Shown: positions 20,129-25,362 of the stretch, piece after piece
Layout: the number at the start of each line of letters is the position of its first letter
Numbering within the stretch: the stretch's first letter is position 1
Assembly: GCA_031200235.1 (NCBI GenBank)
Contig: CP133595.1
Coordinates: 1,636,877 to 1,700,876 of the forward strand
DNA length: 64,000 nucleotides
Direction: 5' to 3'
From: Cuniculiplasma divulgatum
GTDB taxonomy: Archaea; Thermoplasmatota; Thermoplasmata; Thermoplasmatales; Thermoplasmataceae
Made by a program: the position numbers and the translations under genes
The notes under the pieces: model-generated
What the model was told of the DNA's origin: nothing
The model's input: the letters and a program-made list of their open reading frames with translations, nothing else
Database searches by the model: none

Positions 20129-20837
20129 AATTCTTAAAATTCAAGGTCCTGATGCCATCCTGGCCAGCCACAATGGCCATGGTGGCAAGGTTTGAAAACA
20201 GTCCAACTTCCATAACACCAGGTATCATCTTGATCTTTCTTTCCATTTCCGGTGGATTCTTTATTATTCCAAAATCGCAATCCATCACCATGTTTCCGTT
20301 ATCTGTACGGTACTTCCCATTCTCCCTGAAGATGCAAATTCCACCGATCTTTTCAACCTGGTTTCGCGTCATCTGGTTCAGATAAGGAAGGACCTCTACA
20401 GGGACCCTGAATGTTCCAATGCCATTCTCTTTTAGTTTACTCTCATCTGCTATTATACAGACATTCCTGCTGTTGTAGGCCACTATCTTCTCTCTGAGAA
20501 GTGCCCCTCCGCCGCCCTTGACAAGATTGCCTGAACCATCCATCTCATCTGCGCCATCCACATCAAGATCAACGTTTCCTGCGTAATCTTCTTCAACATT
20601 CACGCCTGCTGCCCTGGCCCTCTCCGAACTTTCTATTGATGTTGCAACACCCCTGATCCTGACGCCCTGGGCAACAAGATCCTTCAGTGCGTCTATGAAA
20701 TAATTCACAGTAGAACCTGTTCCTATCCCCAGTACCATTCCGTCTCTGACAAGTTTCAGGGCTTCAATTGCTGCCGCTTTTTTCATTTCTTCGGGAGTCA
20801 CTGTTGGAAAATCCATGGAAGGATTTAAGAATTTCAT
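20118..20837 (-). CDS. rpiA: Ribose-5-phosphate isomerase A
   Basis: RpiA interconverts ribose 5-phosphate and ribulose 5-phosphate, feeding nucleotide and (through ribulose 5-phosphate) riboflavin synthesis. The 239-residue protein has GIGTGSTVNYFIDAL near residue 37, DVDGADEMDGSGNLVKGGGG near 92-111 with the catalytic Asp pair, and LREKIVAY. Translation may start at the first Met or at Met8 (20816). Confidence 0.94.
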   Translation of the reverse strand: MKFLNPSMDFPTVTPEEMKKAAAIEALKLVRDGMVLGIGTGSTVNYFIDALKDLVAQGVRIRGVATSIESSERARAAGVNVEEDYAGNVDLDVDGADEMDGSGNLVKGGGGALLREKIVAYNSRNVCIIADESKLKENGIGTFRVPVEVLPYLNQMTRNQVEKIGGICIFRENGKYRTDNGNMVMDCDFGIIKNPPEMERKIKMIPGVMEVGLFSNLATMAIVAGQDGIRTLNFKNFNP

Positions 20838-20946
20838 GAAAAATCCGACATTTTTCGCTAAAAAGATAATAATGAAGAATTTCCTTGAACGTATTAGCCA
20901 ATGCTCTCAGAACCCTCACAAACTTTACATCCATGGTGCAATATTC

Positions 20947-21462
20947 ATGGGATTCAAGATGGTGATGGAAAAAAAATCCTGGAAAGATTCATTCACAGAA
21001 TTGCAGAGGCTCGTGCTTCCTCCGGACACAAACATTTTCAGTGACCTCTATGGTGGAAGGCTTGTTGAATGGATAGACAATGTCGCAGCCATTGTTGCGG
21101 CAAAGCACTCTCGCCGGAGAACTGTTACGGGTAGCATTGACAGTCTCTTTTTCCTCTCTCCAATACACATGGGGGATATAGTGCACCTTACCGGAAGGAT
21201 AAATTATGTAACAAGGTCCACAATGGAGATAGAAGTCGATGTGTATTCAGAAGAAGGCCTAACCGGAGAGAAAAGTTTCACAACCACCTGTTTCCTGACA
21301 TACGTTGCCATAAATCAGGACAGCAGGCCCACTGAGGTGCCAGGACTCATACTTGAGACCGAAGATGAAATCCAGAGGTTCAAGCAGGGAGAAGCCAGAA
21401 GTGTGGCCAGGCATCAGAATCTGGTTGAGGCCAAGAAAAAACTCACGGATTTCTCCCAGTGA
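20947..21462 (+). CDS. Acyl-CoA thioesterase, hotdog fold
   Basis: A YciA/ACOT-like hotdog thioesterase. LVLPPDTNIFSDLYGGRLVEWIDN contains the family motif with the catalytic Asp helix, and SIDSLFFLSPIHMGDIVHL is the second conserved block. The frame is open from 20815, but that would overlap rpiA in the divergent direction; the Met at 20947 (MGFKMVMEKK) lies about 20-25 bases after CTTTACATCC and is preferred, giving 171 residues. It hydrolyses acyl-CoA; substrate not predictable. Confidence 0.87.
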   Translation: MGFKMVMEKKSWKDSFTELQRLVLPPDTNIFSDLYGGRLVEWIDNVAAIVAAKHSRRRTVTGSIDSLFFLSPIHMGDIVHLTGRINYVTRSTMEIEVDVYSEEGLTGEKSFTTTCFLTYVAINQDSRPTEVPGLILETEDEIQRFKQGEARSVARHQNLVEAKKKLTDFSQ

Positions 21463-21670: not shown

Positions 21671-21680
21671 TTTTTTATAC
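21671..21680 (+). promoter_or_regulatory. TATA box of the T4SS-like operon
   Basis: TTTTTTATAC is centred about 26 bases before the ATG at 21703, with no Shine-Dalgarno in between, fitting a leaderless operon transcript starting at or just before the first codon. Confidence 0.6.
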
Positions 21681-21702: not shown

Positions 21703-21984
21703 ATGGTATTTAATACACTTAGTATATTAATAGCACAAATTGCCACAAGTGCACAGTTGACCACCATTGTCAACAGGCTTTACGAAGTGGTAATATCCAT
21801 ATCCGCTGTCATAATAGCCGTTCTCTGGATTCCAATAGCCATAAGTTTCTTCGGCTCAGACGAGAACCGTCGCTTTGAAGCCAGGGCACGGCTCAAGAAT
21901 GCACTGATTGGGACCTTCATCTATGTTGTGGCCATCAGCGGAGTTCTCTATGCTGTTGTAAACTACATTGTGACCGGTTCATGA
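21703..21984 (+). CDS. VirB2/TrbC-like (CedA1/TedC-like) pilin candidate
   Basis: The 93-residue protein has a hydrophobic N-terminal stretch ending in IATSAQ, which could be a signal-peptidase site, then two transmembrane helices (about residues 27-50 and 68-90) joined by a charged loop FFGSDENRRFEARARLKN. Two helices joined by a positively charged cytosolic loop is the architecture of VirB2/TrbC conjugative pilins and the archaeal CedA1/TedC proteins. The sequence alone is too short for a firm family call; the case rests on topology and its place directly before VirB6-like and VirB4-like genes, one base apart from the next ATG. Confidence 0.6.
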   Translation: MVFNTLSILIAQIATSAQLTTIVNRLYEVVISISAVIIAVLWIPIAISFFGSDENRRFEARARLKNALIGTFIYVVAISGVLYAVVNYIVTGS

Positions 21985-21985
21985 G

Positions 21986-23041
21986 ATGATTGGATATCAG
22001 GAGCTAACCCAGATCATTCTTTACGCGGTGAAGGCCCTCACCCAGATCTACACGCCTCTTCTGAATCTGATCTGGAATTTTGCCATAAAATACGGTCTTC
22101 AGGGCAACATGGCGTATCTGGGCTTTGCAATGGGAAACAGGTCGTATATGGACCTGTATTCATACCTTTACGGAAACATCTTTCCGGCAATGATCAGCCT
22201 TGTGCTAGGGTTATCAGCCATATTTCTTATAGCCGGATCGGGAAACGGTCCTGGTACGGTATACAGAAACCAGCTCATCAGGATATTTCTTTCCATAACG
22301 GTGGCAGCAGGTTCCATGGCAATAATGTCACTGCTTCTATCAGGGCTTCAGGTGCCATTTGAAGTACTCTTTGACAGGGGCAATGTGGACTGGTACAGCT
22401 TTTACAGTGTTTTCAGCTCAGGCGCCGTAGCTGGTGCGGGTAGCCAATCCTCAACTGTATCAGTAATTGCCAGGTTCCTTCTTCTTTCAGCATACTTCAT
22501 TGCAGTCACATCCCTCCTGGCAATCCTTGTTTTCCGTCAGGCCCTGATGATCCTCTTCATACTCATAATGCCTGTGCTAACAATTCTGGCCTGCCTTGAC
22601 ATTGGAGTTAAATATGCCAAAATGGCCTGGGAGCTTGTCCTGGAATTCATGTTCTTTCCATTTGCTGTTATGCTTTCTCTGATGCTTGCAAGAATATTTT
22701 CTGCGGATGTGGTGCTGAATCTTGCATTCCTGTTCCTCCCGTCTATTCTTCCTGGATACCTCATGTTTTCAGGAAGAAATCTTTCCACGGCTCCAGTGAT
22801 GAGTTTCATTGGGGGCATGACCCTAGGTGGAATAGCATCAAGAACTGCCGGTGTTGCCACATCATTCATGGATACAGCCAGCACAGGTAATCCAGTAAGG
22901 GCGATGTCATCAATTGCGCTGGCACCTGCGGCCGACTACAGGCTTGTGTCAGGAATTAAGGCGGGGAAAATGGATAAGAAACCCTTCCTTGAGGATGTAA
23001 AGAATGAGGAACTGAAATATCGCAAAGGGTATCAGGGATGA
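21986..23041 (+). CDS. VirB6/TrbL-like (CedA-like) polytopic membrane protein
   Basis: The 351-residue protein has about six transmembrane segments between residues 65 and 265, including a dense core (LLILSA-type helix, then LMILFILIMPVLTILACL), followed by a charged cytosolic tail that ends KYRKGYQG. In T4SS, VirB6/TrbL forms the inner-membrane channel, and CedA is its proposed archaeal counterpart. I see no diagnostic short motif, so the call relies on topology, length and its tight coupling: it starts one base after the pilin-like stop and overlaps the ATPase ATG by four bases. Confidence 0.6.
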   Translation: MIGYQELTQIILYAVKALTQIYTPLLNLIWNFAIKYGLQGNMAYLGFAMGNRSYMDLYSYLYGNIFPAMISLVLGLSAIFLIAGSGNGPGTVYRNQLIRIFLSITVAAGSMAIMSLLLSGLQVPFEVLFDRGNVDWYSFYSVFSSGAVAGAGSQSSTVSVIARFLLLSAYFIAVTSLLAILVFRQALMILFILIMPVLTILACLDIGVKYAKMAWELVLEFMFFPFAVMLSLMLARIFSADVVLNLAFLFLPSILPGYLMFSGRNLSTAPVMSFIGGMTLGGIASRTAGVATSFMDTASTGNPVRAMSSIALAPAADYRLVSGIKAGKMDKKPFLEDVKNEELKYRKGYQG

Positions 23042-25116
23042 TAAGGCAGCGAATCCCGACAAATATCCTGAACTATCAGCCAACATTGCTGGGCATAGAA
23101 ATCTGGAGGCTGCTGTCGGTCTTTATGCTTGCAGTGATCTCATTTCTACTGTACAGGCTGACAGGAAACTATGCGTCACTGTTTGTAATGTTCCCGGTTA
23201 TCCTTATAATCTTCAAATTCCGCAATCACACTATTCTGGAAGTTTTCATTGGATGGGCGGGATATACCATGGGAAGGAAGACTGTAGAAAATCGATCCAG
23301 CATAAGGATTACAGACCACGGAGAAATTACCACATTCGCTATGGGCAGTTCGTTTTTCACCATTACCGAAATAGAGGGAATAGACATCCTGGAGATGCGG
23401 AACAGCGAGCAGTACAGAATCTATAATTCACTGGAGAAAATCATTAATGATGCAGAGATGAAACTTAGTTTCCTGACAATTTCCATGGCCGATCATGGGG
23501 AATACCCCGGATATGGCCAGCAAAGAATCCGGAACTTCGCTATTGTGCAGGACCAGCGTTCATTTAAAAACGGATTGGATGAAGAAATAGTATTACTTAC
23601 GGAAAAAATCAGAAGTGGTCTGGATTCCATGGGTTTTACCCTTAGAGGTGCCGGTATTGTCCAGCTACAGGAAATACTGGCTGAGGACGGTTACAGGCAG
23701 TCAGGAAATACCGGGAGTTCTGATTCCGTTGCTGTAGGTTCAATGGAGATGATTTCACTGATCCGCAGGTACAGGCATTTCAATAAGTCTTCAAGATATT
23801 TTGCATATCTTTCACTGAAGGATTCCAACTATGAATTAGGGTCTTCATATATTGAGGTACTCAGATCAATGGGAATAGATTTTGCCATCACTGTATCATC
23901 TAAAAATGTGGAAGTAGCTCATTCCTCGGAATATTTGAAGCGCATCATAGCTGAGAGGTCCGCAGAAATGAGAAATGCCGGTTCAAGTTACACAAATTCC
24001 GGCAACAGGCTGAAGCTTCAGGTGCAGGACGGAAAGCATATGCTTGAACTTCTGCAGAGCAGTGGCATTCGTCCCACAATAGCAACTGCGACCCTGAGAA
24101 TATTTGCGGATCATCCTGCAATTCTTAAGGAAAACATCTCAAGGGTGGAAAATGCCATAAAAAAAATCGGACTTGAATTTGTATCAATAAGTGCTGGGTG
24201 GAGGATTTCAGGTAACTCCATACCAATTGGCATAGAACCTCACGTTAATTACCTGATGAACACAAGATCAGTCTCATCCATTCTTCCGTTTCTATCAGCG
24301 GGTAATGCACAAAGACATGGCATAAGGCTGGGTTATGATGATCTTAACGAACAACCTGTTTATCTGGATTTTTTCAGGGGACCATCGCACAATTCGATTA
24401 TACTGGGAGAAACAGGATCAGGAAAGTCATTCTTTGCCAAGTATATAATCTCACGATACATGGAGCAAAGGAGTGATCTGTCAATAATCATCTTTGATCC
24501 ACTTGAAGAATACAGCTGCTCATTTTTCAAATCTAACTGTTCAGTCATCGAGGTCAATGATATGGAAGATGTCAGTAGCCTGCGTGAAAGTATTACCAAG
24601 ACATGGGAAAATAATCACAATTCCAGTGAATCTTCCCGCATATCTGTTGTGCGACCGGGCACAGTCAAAGACGAATCGTGGGATAGCAGACTGCATGGGA
24701 TATTAAGTGCAGTAATGAACACAACGGACGTTCTATCTGGAAACAAGATAGTCATATTGGATGAATGCCATCTCTTTCTCAAAAGCAGGGCCAACACTCA
24801 GATTCTGGATTCTCTTGTGAGGCATTCAAGGCACTCCGGAACTGCCATAATCAGCATATCTCAGAACGTGACGGATTTCATGGCGAATGAAAGTCGTTCC
24901 ATAATCTATAACAGTGCCAATATCTTCCTCTTCAGGACCAGAAGCCTGACGGAAAGCTATGTGGAGGCGCTCAAGCTTGATGATTTCGACATTGAGCCTC
25001 CTGAAACACTGGCTGGTGGAAAAGGGTACTCCTACTCAGAATGTATTTATTCCGATGGCAACTATGCCAGAAAATTACGTATTCTTCCAGATTCCGGAGA
25101 GAATTATCCCACCTGA
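23038..25116 (+). CDS. VirB4-family ATPase with N-terminal VirB3-like membrane region (CedB-like)
   Basis: The 692-residue protein begins with two transmembrane helices (about residues 23-62) after an amphipathic start, resembling VirB3/PrgI, often fused to VirB4. A long middle domain follows, then a HerA/VirB4-type motor: Walker A GETGSGKS at 457-464, Walker B VILDE with D575-E576, and a sensor-like ISISQNVTDFM near 605. VirB4 ATPases power pilus assembly and DNA or protein transfer; CedB drives DNA import in Sulfolobales. This is the strongest member of the three-gene operon. No relaxase, VirD4 coupling protein, or tyrosine/serine recombinase is seen nearby. Confidence 0.85.
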   Translation: MIRQRIPTNILNYQPTLLGIEIWRLLSVFMLAVISFLLYRLTGNYASLFVMFPVILIIFKFRNHTILEVFIGWAGYTMGRKTVENRSSIRITDHGEITTFAMGSSFFTITEIEGIDILEMRNSEQYRIYNSLEKIINDAEMKLSFLTISMADHGEYPGYGQQRIRNFAIVQDQRSFKNGLDEEIVLLTEKIRSGLDSMGFTLRGAGIVQLQEILAEDGYRQSGNTGSSDSVAVGSMEMISLIRRYRHFNKSSRYFAYLSLKDSNYELGSSYIEVLRSMGIDFAITVSSKNVEVAHSSEYLKRIIAERSAEMRNAGSSYTNSGNRLKLQVQDGKHMLELLQSSGIRPTIATATLRIFADHPAILKENISRVENAIKKIGLEFVSISAGWRISGNSIPIGIEPHVNYLMNTRSVSSILPFLSAGNAQRHGIRLGYDDLNEQPVYLDFFRGPSHNSIILGETGSGKSFFAKYIISRYMEQRSDLSIIIFDPLEEYSCSFFKSNCSVIEVNDMEDVSSLRESITKTWENNHNSSESSRISVVRPGTVKDESWDSRLHGILSAVMNTTDVLSGNKIVILDECHLFLKSRANTQILDSLVRHSRHSGTAIISISQNVTDFMANESRSIIYNSANIFLFRTRSLTESYVEALKLDDFDIEPPETLAGGKGYSYSECIYSDGNYARKLRILPDSGENYPT

Positions 25117-25362
25117 TTACAGTGTAGAGGTCGAATCCTCTTCCTTTATTTTGTCCTGAACGAGAACAAGTTCCAGAACGCCAAAAATAACCATTGGTAT
25201 AACGAAAGAGGTAAGACCAACATCGGCCCATGTATTGAAGACGATGGACCAGGCAACATAAAATCCCGCCCCTATAAATAGGAGGCCAAATCCGACAAAT
25301 TTACCCCAGAAGTGCCTTTTCCACCCTGATAAGGGCACCATTGAAATCTCGTTCTTTGCCAT
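25117..25362 (-). CDS. Small two-helix membrane protein
   Basis: The 81-residue protein has two transmembrane helices (about 23-41 and 52-68) and an acidic/polar tail DKIKEEDSTSTL. Its stop abuts the stop of the VirB4-like gene with no spacer on the opposite strand. No family recognised. It could be a bystander or an extra membrane part of the neighbouring system. Confidence 0.65.
   Translation of the reverse strand: MAKNEISMVPLSGWKRHFWGKFVGFGLLFIGAGFYVAWSIVFNTWADVGLTSFVIPMVIFGVLELVLVQDKIKEEDSTSTL

Follow-up and report, generated by a model that had tools for sequence, protein, structure and literature searches.

A conserved chromosomal operon of Thermoplasmatales with the parts of a minimal type IV secretion system, a strong candidate for DNA exchange

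Does a compact operon in the chromosome of Cuniculiplasma divulgatum encode a pilus through which these archaea exchange DNA, and does it belong to the cell or to a mobile element? The locus occupies positions 21703-25116, on the plus strand, of the window, that is, the whole stretch of 64,000 nucleotides analyzed here, and consists of three adjacent open reading frames that encode, in this order, a pilin, a polytopic membrane protein and a VirB4-type ATPase. A sequence-only reading had likened it to the Ced and Ted systems, which share the same three core parts, namely, a pilin, a VirB6-like protein and a VirB4-type ATPase (PMC9905601).

The three genes and their products

The genes for the pilin (21703-21984, 93 aa), the VirB6-like protein (21986-23041, 351 aa) and the ATPase (23038-25116, 692 aa) are separated by a gap of one base and then by an ATGA overlap of four bases, and hydropathy analysis assigns two, six and two transmembrane helices, respectively, to their products. 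Thus, the original description of three tightly coupled genes encoding a two-helix pilin-like protein, a six-helix membrane protein and an ATPase with two N-terminal helices holds in full. A TATA-box-like element is recognizable in the sequence at 21671-21680 on the plus strand, about 27 nt 5' of the pilin ATG, implying that the pilin gene would be the start of a leaderless transcript; a T/A-rich TATA element was seen by eye at a similar distance from the pilin gene in many relatives.

Judging from profile matches, the 93-aa protein is a pilin of the VirB2/T4SS_pilin type, folded as a hairpin of two helices whose charged loop (D53...R63) is conserved. The window pilin itself scores 26.3 bits against T4SS_pilin PF18895 (E = 7.7e-6), 0.3 bits short of the curated cut-off of 26.6; the model is matched by 33 of the 34 relatives, which upholds the VirB2-like assignment, and more distant relatives from Aciduliprofundum-like genomes exceed the cut-off. 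The Mbov_0395 conjugal pilin model, derived from a mycoplasma integrative conjugative element (ICE), is matched by 18 of 33 relatives (best E-value, 9e-8). The AF2 model of the pilin (pLDDT 81) was uninformative in a Foldseek search, the two-helix hairpin resembling unrelated transporters. By eye, the N-terminus of the window pilin is short and lacks an obvious signal peptide; some relatives (family f3) carry a long N-terminal signal-like segment.

The 351-aa protein can be classified tentatively, by fold rank, as a VirB6-like polytopic membrane protein, at no significant sequence or fold E-value. Its AF2 model (pLDDT 71.6), in which the low-confidence C-terminal tail is probably disordered, places chains of the R388 type IV secretion system (T4SS) stalk/IMC complex at ranks 1-4 among 350,542 PDB chains, with E-values of at least 0.16; the best match is 8rtd_L (probability 0.96). 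Sequence-family searches gave no match. The VirB6-like assignment of this six-helix protein is suggested by the rank of the four top PDB matches and finds no counterpart at the level of sequence families. The NCBIfam Ced models matched neither the pilin nor the VirB6-like protein, and PDB sequence searches with profiles of these two proteins retrieved no T4SS pilus chain or other T4SS chain. Alignment by hhalign to the single R388 VirB6, VirB2 and VirB3 proteins produced nothing significant, two control pairs being equally poor; of the R388 proteins tried, VirB4 alone aligned, with the ATPase (E = 3e-4).

The 692-aa protein is a VirB4-type ATPase with, to judge by its sequence, intact catalytic motifs. 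The Walker A motif is GETGSGKS (457-464) and the Walker B motif ends at D575-E576, with G457, T459-K463 and E576 invariant among 16 relatives. The protein matches NF045971 (1.5e-29), NF045975 (5.7e-24) and TIGR00929 (5.5e-11), its best PDB match is VirB4 4ag5 (1.9e-13), and the CD1110 VirB4 model is matched by all 16 relatives, in each of which VirB4 models dominate. The matches to the CedB model (1e-7, 31 bits, cut-off 700) and the CedD model (0.009, 14.7 bits, cut-off 600) lie far below threshold, and the locus holds a single VirB4-type ATPase rather than a CedB/CedD-type pair. Assignment to HerA was rejected: the HerA repair-helicase model NF040819 is absent from the matches of this protein, and a separate HerA is encoded in the same genome (C1:512847-514319; NF040819 E-value, 1.1e-41). 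The VirB4-type ATPase with these Walker motifs was correctly recognized from the start.

The N-terminal part of the ATPase (23038-23367, plus strand) contains transmembrane segments at residues 20-38 and 41-59, the first preceded by a PTLLG motif, and had been compared with VirB3 or PrgI. VirB3 PF05101 gives no match in the window ATPase itself, is found just below its cut-off in one relative, L106 (E = 1.6e-4, 22.4 bits, cut-off 23.9), and is weaker in two others (0.057 and 0.078); the TcpE model is matched by the N-terminus in one relative, and PrgI was never matched. About half of the relatives encode the first ~230 residues as a separate ORF. Independently of the other evidence, these matches weakly suggest that the helices are VirB3-like, leaning to VirB3/TcpE, and the window ATPase is likely to be a VirB3-VirB4 fusion.

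Conservation and chromosomal setting

Among the 35 genomes of the family that are at least 90% complete, 34 encode the pilin, in one copy each, and all 14 genera are represented. The three-gene order recurs across the family, in keeping with the sequence-only reading, and the operon is present in other families of Thermoplasmata as well. It usually occupies the same chromosomal position, with the same flanks across many genera: the upstream thioesterase gene (20815-21462, plus strand), which adjoins the operon in most of the 26 loci, is a conserved flank that marks the usual site and lies outside the system. A convergent gene for an 81-aa protein with two transmembrane segments (25117-25362, minus strand) adjoins the operon in 25 loci. 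A role for this gene as an additional, fifth part of the system or as a counterpart of CedA2 was rejected, because it also occurs in genomes that lack the operon and stays apart from the operon in those where the latter has been relocated; we judge it to be a conserved bystander.

All three genes are under strong purifying selection, with dN/dS values of 0.05 to 0.18, and their conservation is not a chance effect. The distances of the three proteins correlate best with each other (rho from 0.59 to 0.76) and less with those of most flanking genes. The system may be dispensable because one family genome, 96% complete, lacks both the pilin and VirB4.

The components resemble the transfer proteins of mycoplasma and CD1110-type ICEs, and the locus could accordingly be viewed as a remnant or a resident of an integrated conjugative element or plasmid. 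We regard this as extremely unlikely and reject the mobile-element interpretation: the operon is single-copy, resides at the same site across many genera and is found in 34 of the 35 genomes, its proteins have no relatives on viral contigs and distant matches only on plasmids, and PF03432, the sole relaxase family searched, has no match anywhere in the genome. An ICE would be expected to carry an integrase or relaxase and to show a variable insertion site and a patchy distribution; the conserved site, the near-universal occurrence and the lack of a PF03432 match are at odds with this.

The same setting bears on two other functions. T4SS lineages have turned to the export of proteins time and again (PMC12857230), and some members of Thermoplasmatales are reported to serve as hosts of nanosized archaea (PMC8975820), so that effectors might be delivered to neighbors or symbionts; no effector or immunity gene is linked to the operon and a whole family keeps the three-gene arrangement unchanged, which makes protein secretion highly unlikely. 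A conjugation-type pilus that acts mainly in adhesion, aggregation or biofilm formation, with no passage of DNA, is unlikely, too. In its favor, in families f5 and f13, a gene for a large, Ig/PKD-rich surface protein lies immediately upstream of the pilin gene; a genome of Aciduliprofundum size encodes five paralogous pilins, of which four are greatly extended at the N-terminus, suggesting surface attachment; and some bacterial T4SSs without VirD4 build adhesive pili (PMC12857230). Against this, the window's own genome and most family members lack a gene of this kind next to the operon, and Thermoplasmatales have type IV pili for adhesion in any case (PMC12448462).

Relation to known transfer systems

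Among the closest known systems are Ted and Ced, and most likely the operon works as they do; the likeness is one of parts and proposed function rather than established homology with CedA or CedA1/TedC. Ted of Thermoproteales (TedC pilin, TedA, TedB) similarly combines a VirB2-like pilin, a VirB6-like channel and a VirB4-type ATPase, is chromosomal and has no relaxase (for our locus, VirB6 is assigned by fold rank and the relaxase search covered PF03432), and the long N-terminal signal-like segment of TedC recurs in some family f3 pilins. Unlike Ted, the genes here form one tight operon, the N-terminus of the ATPase looks VirB3-like, and genes for ParA, Rad50 or HerA are absent from its side. 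Ced of Sulfolobales (CedA, CedA1, CedA2, CedB, CedD), a UV-inducible system for DNA import that acts together with Ups pili, has the same core functions; the short N-terminus of the window pilin resembles unprocessed CedA1, and the splitting off of the VirB4 N-terminal domain in about half of the relatives is reminiscent of CedB/CedD. In contrast to Ced, the ATPase matches VirB4 models (1.5e-29) far better than those of CedB (1e-7) and CedD (0.009), and there is no CedA2 candidate.

Two bacterial systems are also similar. The mycoplasma ICE module (pilin-like Mbov_0395, VirB4 Mbov_0397) provides the best NCBIfam match of the pilin and the second-best of the ATPase, pairs a VirB6-like gene with VirB4 and lacks VirB1 and VirB8 (PMC12857230), and on both sides the hosts are wall-less monoderm cells; it belongs to a mobile element with a VirD4 gene, whereas the present locus is fixed in the chromosome. 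The MPF_FATA-related T4SSs of Patescibacteria comprise PF18895 pilins, VirB4, VirB6 and VirB3, and are domesticated and mostly devoid of a relaxase (PMC12102498). They differ in that here VirB1 and VirB8 neighbors are absent, most genomes have a single pilin, and a VirB3-VirB4 fusion, not found in those systems (PMC12102498), is likely.

In Cuniculiplasma itself, VirB4, multipass and membrane proteins of one cluster (CSP5_1185-1189), together with VirD4, were named as type IV secretion components by Golyshina et al. in 2016 (PMC5155288). This cluster, in the same archaeal order, is very probably the orthologous locus, so the claim that such an operon had no precedent among Thermoplasma-like genomes does not stand; in the accessible text of that account, the components are annotated and the cluster is given no pilin, Ced/Ted-like or DNA-exchange interpretation. 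We read the locus as a variant of known T4SS or conjugation-type machinery that would work like Ced/Ted.

Proposed function and direction of transfer

The VirB2-type pilin, the VirB4 ATPase, a polytopic partner with a VirB6-like predicted fold, the fixed gene order, the purifying selection and the lack of a mobile-element context are established as far as sequence goes. We propose, with a probability of about 0.65 that applies equally to DNA exchange between cells as the function, that the operon is a chromosomally domesticated minimal T4SS, part of the core gene set in Thermoplasmatales and in some of their relatives within Thermoplasmata, that exchanges DNA between cells; that it forms a T4SS-type pilus or channel is considered highly probable. 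VirB6 would serve as the platform or pore in the membrane, beneath which the VirB3-like helices would dock a VirB4 hexamer. Driven by ATP hydrolysis, VirB4 would pull the hairpin pilins out of the membrane; these would be stacked, probably together with lipid, to form a thin pilus, and the charged loop would line its lumen. On contact with a neighboring cell, DNA would pass between the cells for recombinational repair, probably as single strands, the form proposed for Ced/Ted. Against this proposal, cryoEM of two Thermoplasmatales describes type IV pili and archaella and uses none of the T4SS or conjugation terms for which it was searched, so that a pilus of the T4SS kind is yet to be observed.

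Import had been judged the more likely direction of transfer from the absence of a relaxase, VirD4 or integrase nearby. This deduction fails: two VirD4/TrwB-like ATPases, both matching TrwB_AAD_bind and one matching TraG-D_C above the cut-off, are encoded elsewhere in the genome, unlinked to the operon, and no direction follows from the lack of a VirD4 or relaxase gene close by. Nothing in the sequence demonstrates import as opposed to export. Export in the manner of chromosomal conjugation, with the unlinked ATPases bringing DNA to VirB4/VirB6 and the cell acting as the donor, is a possible sub-case of DNA exchange that overlaps our preferred explanation. Relatives of one of these ATPases occur in 46 of 61 genomes, and in family f3 a related one is encoded directly downstream of VirB4, but four genomes (G013, G029, G021 and G022) keep the operon with no match to that protein, and no PF03432 MOB relaxase was found; we consider export rather unlikely. 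By analogy with Ced, import is slightly favored because no relaxase (PF03432) was found, and we tentatively place it, as the main direction, somewhat below an even chance.

A bolder formulation of the DNA-exchange proposal, which we put just short of an even chance, is that this is a third archaeal system of the Ced/Ted class: a DNA-exchange organelle that is ancestral in Thermoplasmata, is passed on vertically and depends on neither VirD4 nor a relaxase. In it, a VirB3-VirB4 fusion would provide a component that archaea have been said to lack. VirB3 homologues have been reported as absent in archaea (PMC11868833), and the window locus points to a VirB3-like domain there. DNA exchange by this operon would carry chromosomal DNA-exchange pili from the crenarchaeal orders (Ced/Ted) to the wall-less Thermoplasmata. 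The cell envelope of these archaea is simple, with no S-layer and no cell wall, and the apparatus could therefore be near the minimum for cell-to-cell DNA transfer.

In populations of Ferroplasma, genomes are mosaic and recombination is frequent, and the accessible text of that account names no DNA-transfer machinery (PMC2704941). Within this family, a T4SS locus that nearly all genomes carry in a single copy offers a concrete candidate for recombination of this type that can be tested by knock-out, and we consider the operon a strong candidate for the means by which these archaea swap DNA. If the bolder formulation is true, the ancestral DNA-exchange organelle would explain the frequent homologous recombination in Ferroplasma populations.

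Components of the operon

The operon comprises three forward-strand genes, for a pilin (93 aa, two predicted transmembrane helices; window 21703-21984), a VirB6-like protein (351 aa, six predicted helices; 21986-23041) and a VirB4-type ATPase (692 aa, two predicted helices; 23038-25116). A single base separates the first two genes, and the second and third overlap by four bases. The sequence-only reading had placed the genes and their spacing correctly, along with the Walker A and Walker B residues of the ATPase, most of which are invariant among relatives. A TATA-like element lies ~27 nt before the pilin ATG, and many relatives have a similar one at roughly that spacing, pointing to a leaderless transcript that would start at the pilin gene.

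The assignment of the ATPase to the VirB4 type, already made from the sequence, holds: it matches VirB4 models (CD1110, 1.5e-29; Mbov_0397, 5.7e-24; TIGR00929, 5.5e-11) compared with 1e-7 for CedB and 0.009 for CedD among the Ced models, all 16 relatives tested match CD1110, the closest PDB relative is VirB4 (4ag5, 1.9e-13), and HerA proper is a separate gene of the source genome (C1:512847-514319, outside the window). The N-terminus is likely, albeit not proved, to be a VirB3-like domain, given that Pfam VirB3 (PF05101) matches that of one relative (locus L106, E = 1.6e-4) and two others at E near 0.06-0.08, TcpE matches one relative (E = 0.0098), and PTLLG aligns, not significantly, with PTILG of R388 VirB3. 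Roughly half of the relatives encode the ATPase as two ORFs, with a break within the VirB4 N-terminal domain that separates a 2TM protein of ~230 aa from an ATPase of ~430-540 aa, an arrangement reminiscent of CedB and CedD of Sulfolobales, whose N-termini superpose on different portions of that domain (PMC11868833).

The pilin matches T4SS_pilin (PF18895) with E = 7.7e-6, 0.3 bits under the curated cut-off, which Aciduliprofundum-like relatives surpass; 33 of 34 pilin relatives match this family, and Mbov_0395, the pilin model from mycoplasma ICEs, matches 18 of 33. AF2 predicts a two-helix hairpin, whose conserved loop is charged and, by its sequence, net basic. Across the proteins of 43 loci, the median identity is 0.48 for the pilin vs about 0.22 for VirB4 and VirB6; such slow divergence beside two fast-diverging partners is unusual for a surface-exposed pilin. 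Genome G040 (L105:4826-9685) carries five tandem pilin paralogs adjoining VirB6/VirB4, four with large N-terminal extensions, an array that resembles those of Patescibacteria. The 351-aa protein matched no sequence family; for its AF2 model (pLDDT 71.6), the best four Foldseek hits among 350,542 PDB chains all belong to the R388 T4SS stalk/IMC, with non-significant E-values, a ranking that chance does not readily explain.

Distribution and inheritance

VirB4 matches were detected in 53 of the 61 genomes (own and relatives), the weakest possibly representing other motors. The pilin is present in one copy in 34 of the 35 family genomes that are at least 90% complete, covering 14 of 14 genera, and its range extends to further families within the order and the class; the genomes listed for several other Thermoplasmatota families lack it. 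In the distant family f13, the pilin and VirB6 genes adjoin each other, with VirB4 nearby. One family member, G219 (96% complete), lacks both pilin and VirB4, apparently through loss or an assembly gap.

A check of synteny proved positive: the flanking thioesterase and downstream genes recur at many relatives' loci, and the operon occupies another position in a few lineages (e.g. L052, L056, L057, L074). The dN/dS values of the operon genes are 0.05-0.18, and the protein distances of the three correlate mutually at 0.59-0.76, above their correlation with most flanking genes. Together with the distribution, this is the pattern expected of a domesticated core locus; a mobile element was rejected given the single copy in 34 of 35 genomes, the common flanks and the dN/dS range.

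Neighbors and partners elsewhere

The lack of a nearby VirD4 had been taken as a pointer to import, an argument not supported in that form, given two VirD4/TrwB-like P-loop ATPases encoded elsewhere in the source genome, away from the operon (L079:7339-9549 and L080:7637-9550), with similar C-terminal regions. Downstream of the former lies a gene whose product shows, by eye, a Fic-like motif (FQDGNGIIAR), and the latter is overlapped by a 310-aa gene of unassigned family. One of these ATPases has relatives in 46 of 61 genomes; four genomes (G013, G029, G021, G022) possess the operon and no such relative, so VirD4 is probably not obligatory.

The convergent gene adjoining VirB4 (window 25117-25362) encodes a two-TM protein with invariant Y35, W38, W45, D47 and G49 that occurs in 19 of the 20 genomes examined; tested as a system component, it was judged a bystander, with no linkage to T4SS. 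In distant families and one family member, a large secreted protein is encoded directly upstream of the pilin (L093:8295-9899, L094:7607-9325, L097:5756-8008, L105:9693-11927, L057:11717-13852); it has a C-terminal TM helix, a short tail on the cytosolic side that by eye resembles a winged helix and, in several members, Ig/PKD-like repeats, and is possibly an adhesin or sensor. In family f3 (L063:8908-11785, L065, L070, L071, L072), genes for a VirD4/HerA-like ATPase and a GINS-like protein (Sld5, E = 0.0034) come after the operon, which adjoins topoisomerase VI-like genes (by eye).

Relation to known systems and a proposed role

Contrary to the initial expectation of novelty in a Thermoplasma-like genome, VirB4, VirD4 and associated membrane proteins of Cuniculiplasma were listed as type IV secretion components by Golyshina et al. 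2016 (PMC5155288), and E-plasma has been noted to encode a VirB4 (PMC10354927). Type IV pili and archaella are the subject of a 2025 cryoEM study of filaments in Thermoplasmatales, in which none of the T4SS and conjugation terms searched for occurs. Our literature searches found no paper uniting the Thermoplasmatales components as a DNA-exchange system; as far as these searches reach, the pilin assignment, the likely VirB3-like fusion, the family-wide fixed locus and the probable VirD4 independence are new.

The same three core components make up Ced and Ted, described as domesticated T4SS derivatives (PMC9905601), and the operon would work like them. We do not claim membership in Ced because the operon lacks the CedB/CedD feature. 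The Ced analogy, together with the lack of a match to the relaxase family PF03432 in the source genome, leans weakly to import as the direction of transfer. The three genes are demonstrably present and conserved; we propose that VirB4 would assemble a VirB2-type pilus on VirB6 and that, upon cell contact, this pilus would serve the transfer of DNA, presumably single-stranded, from cell to cell for recombination.
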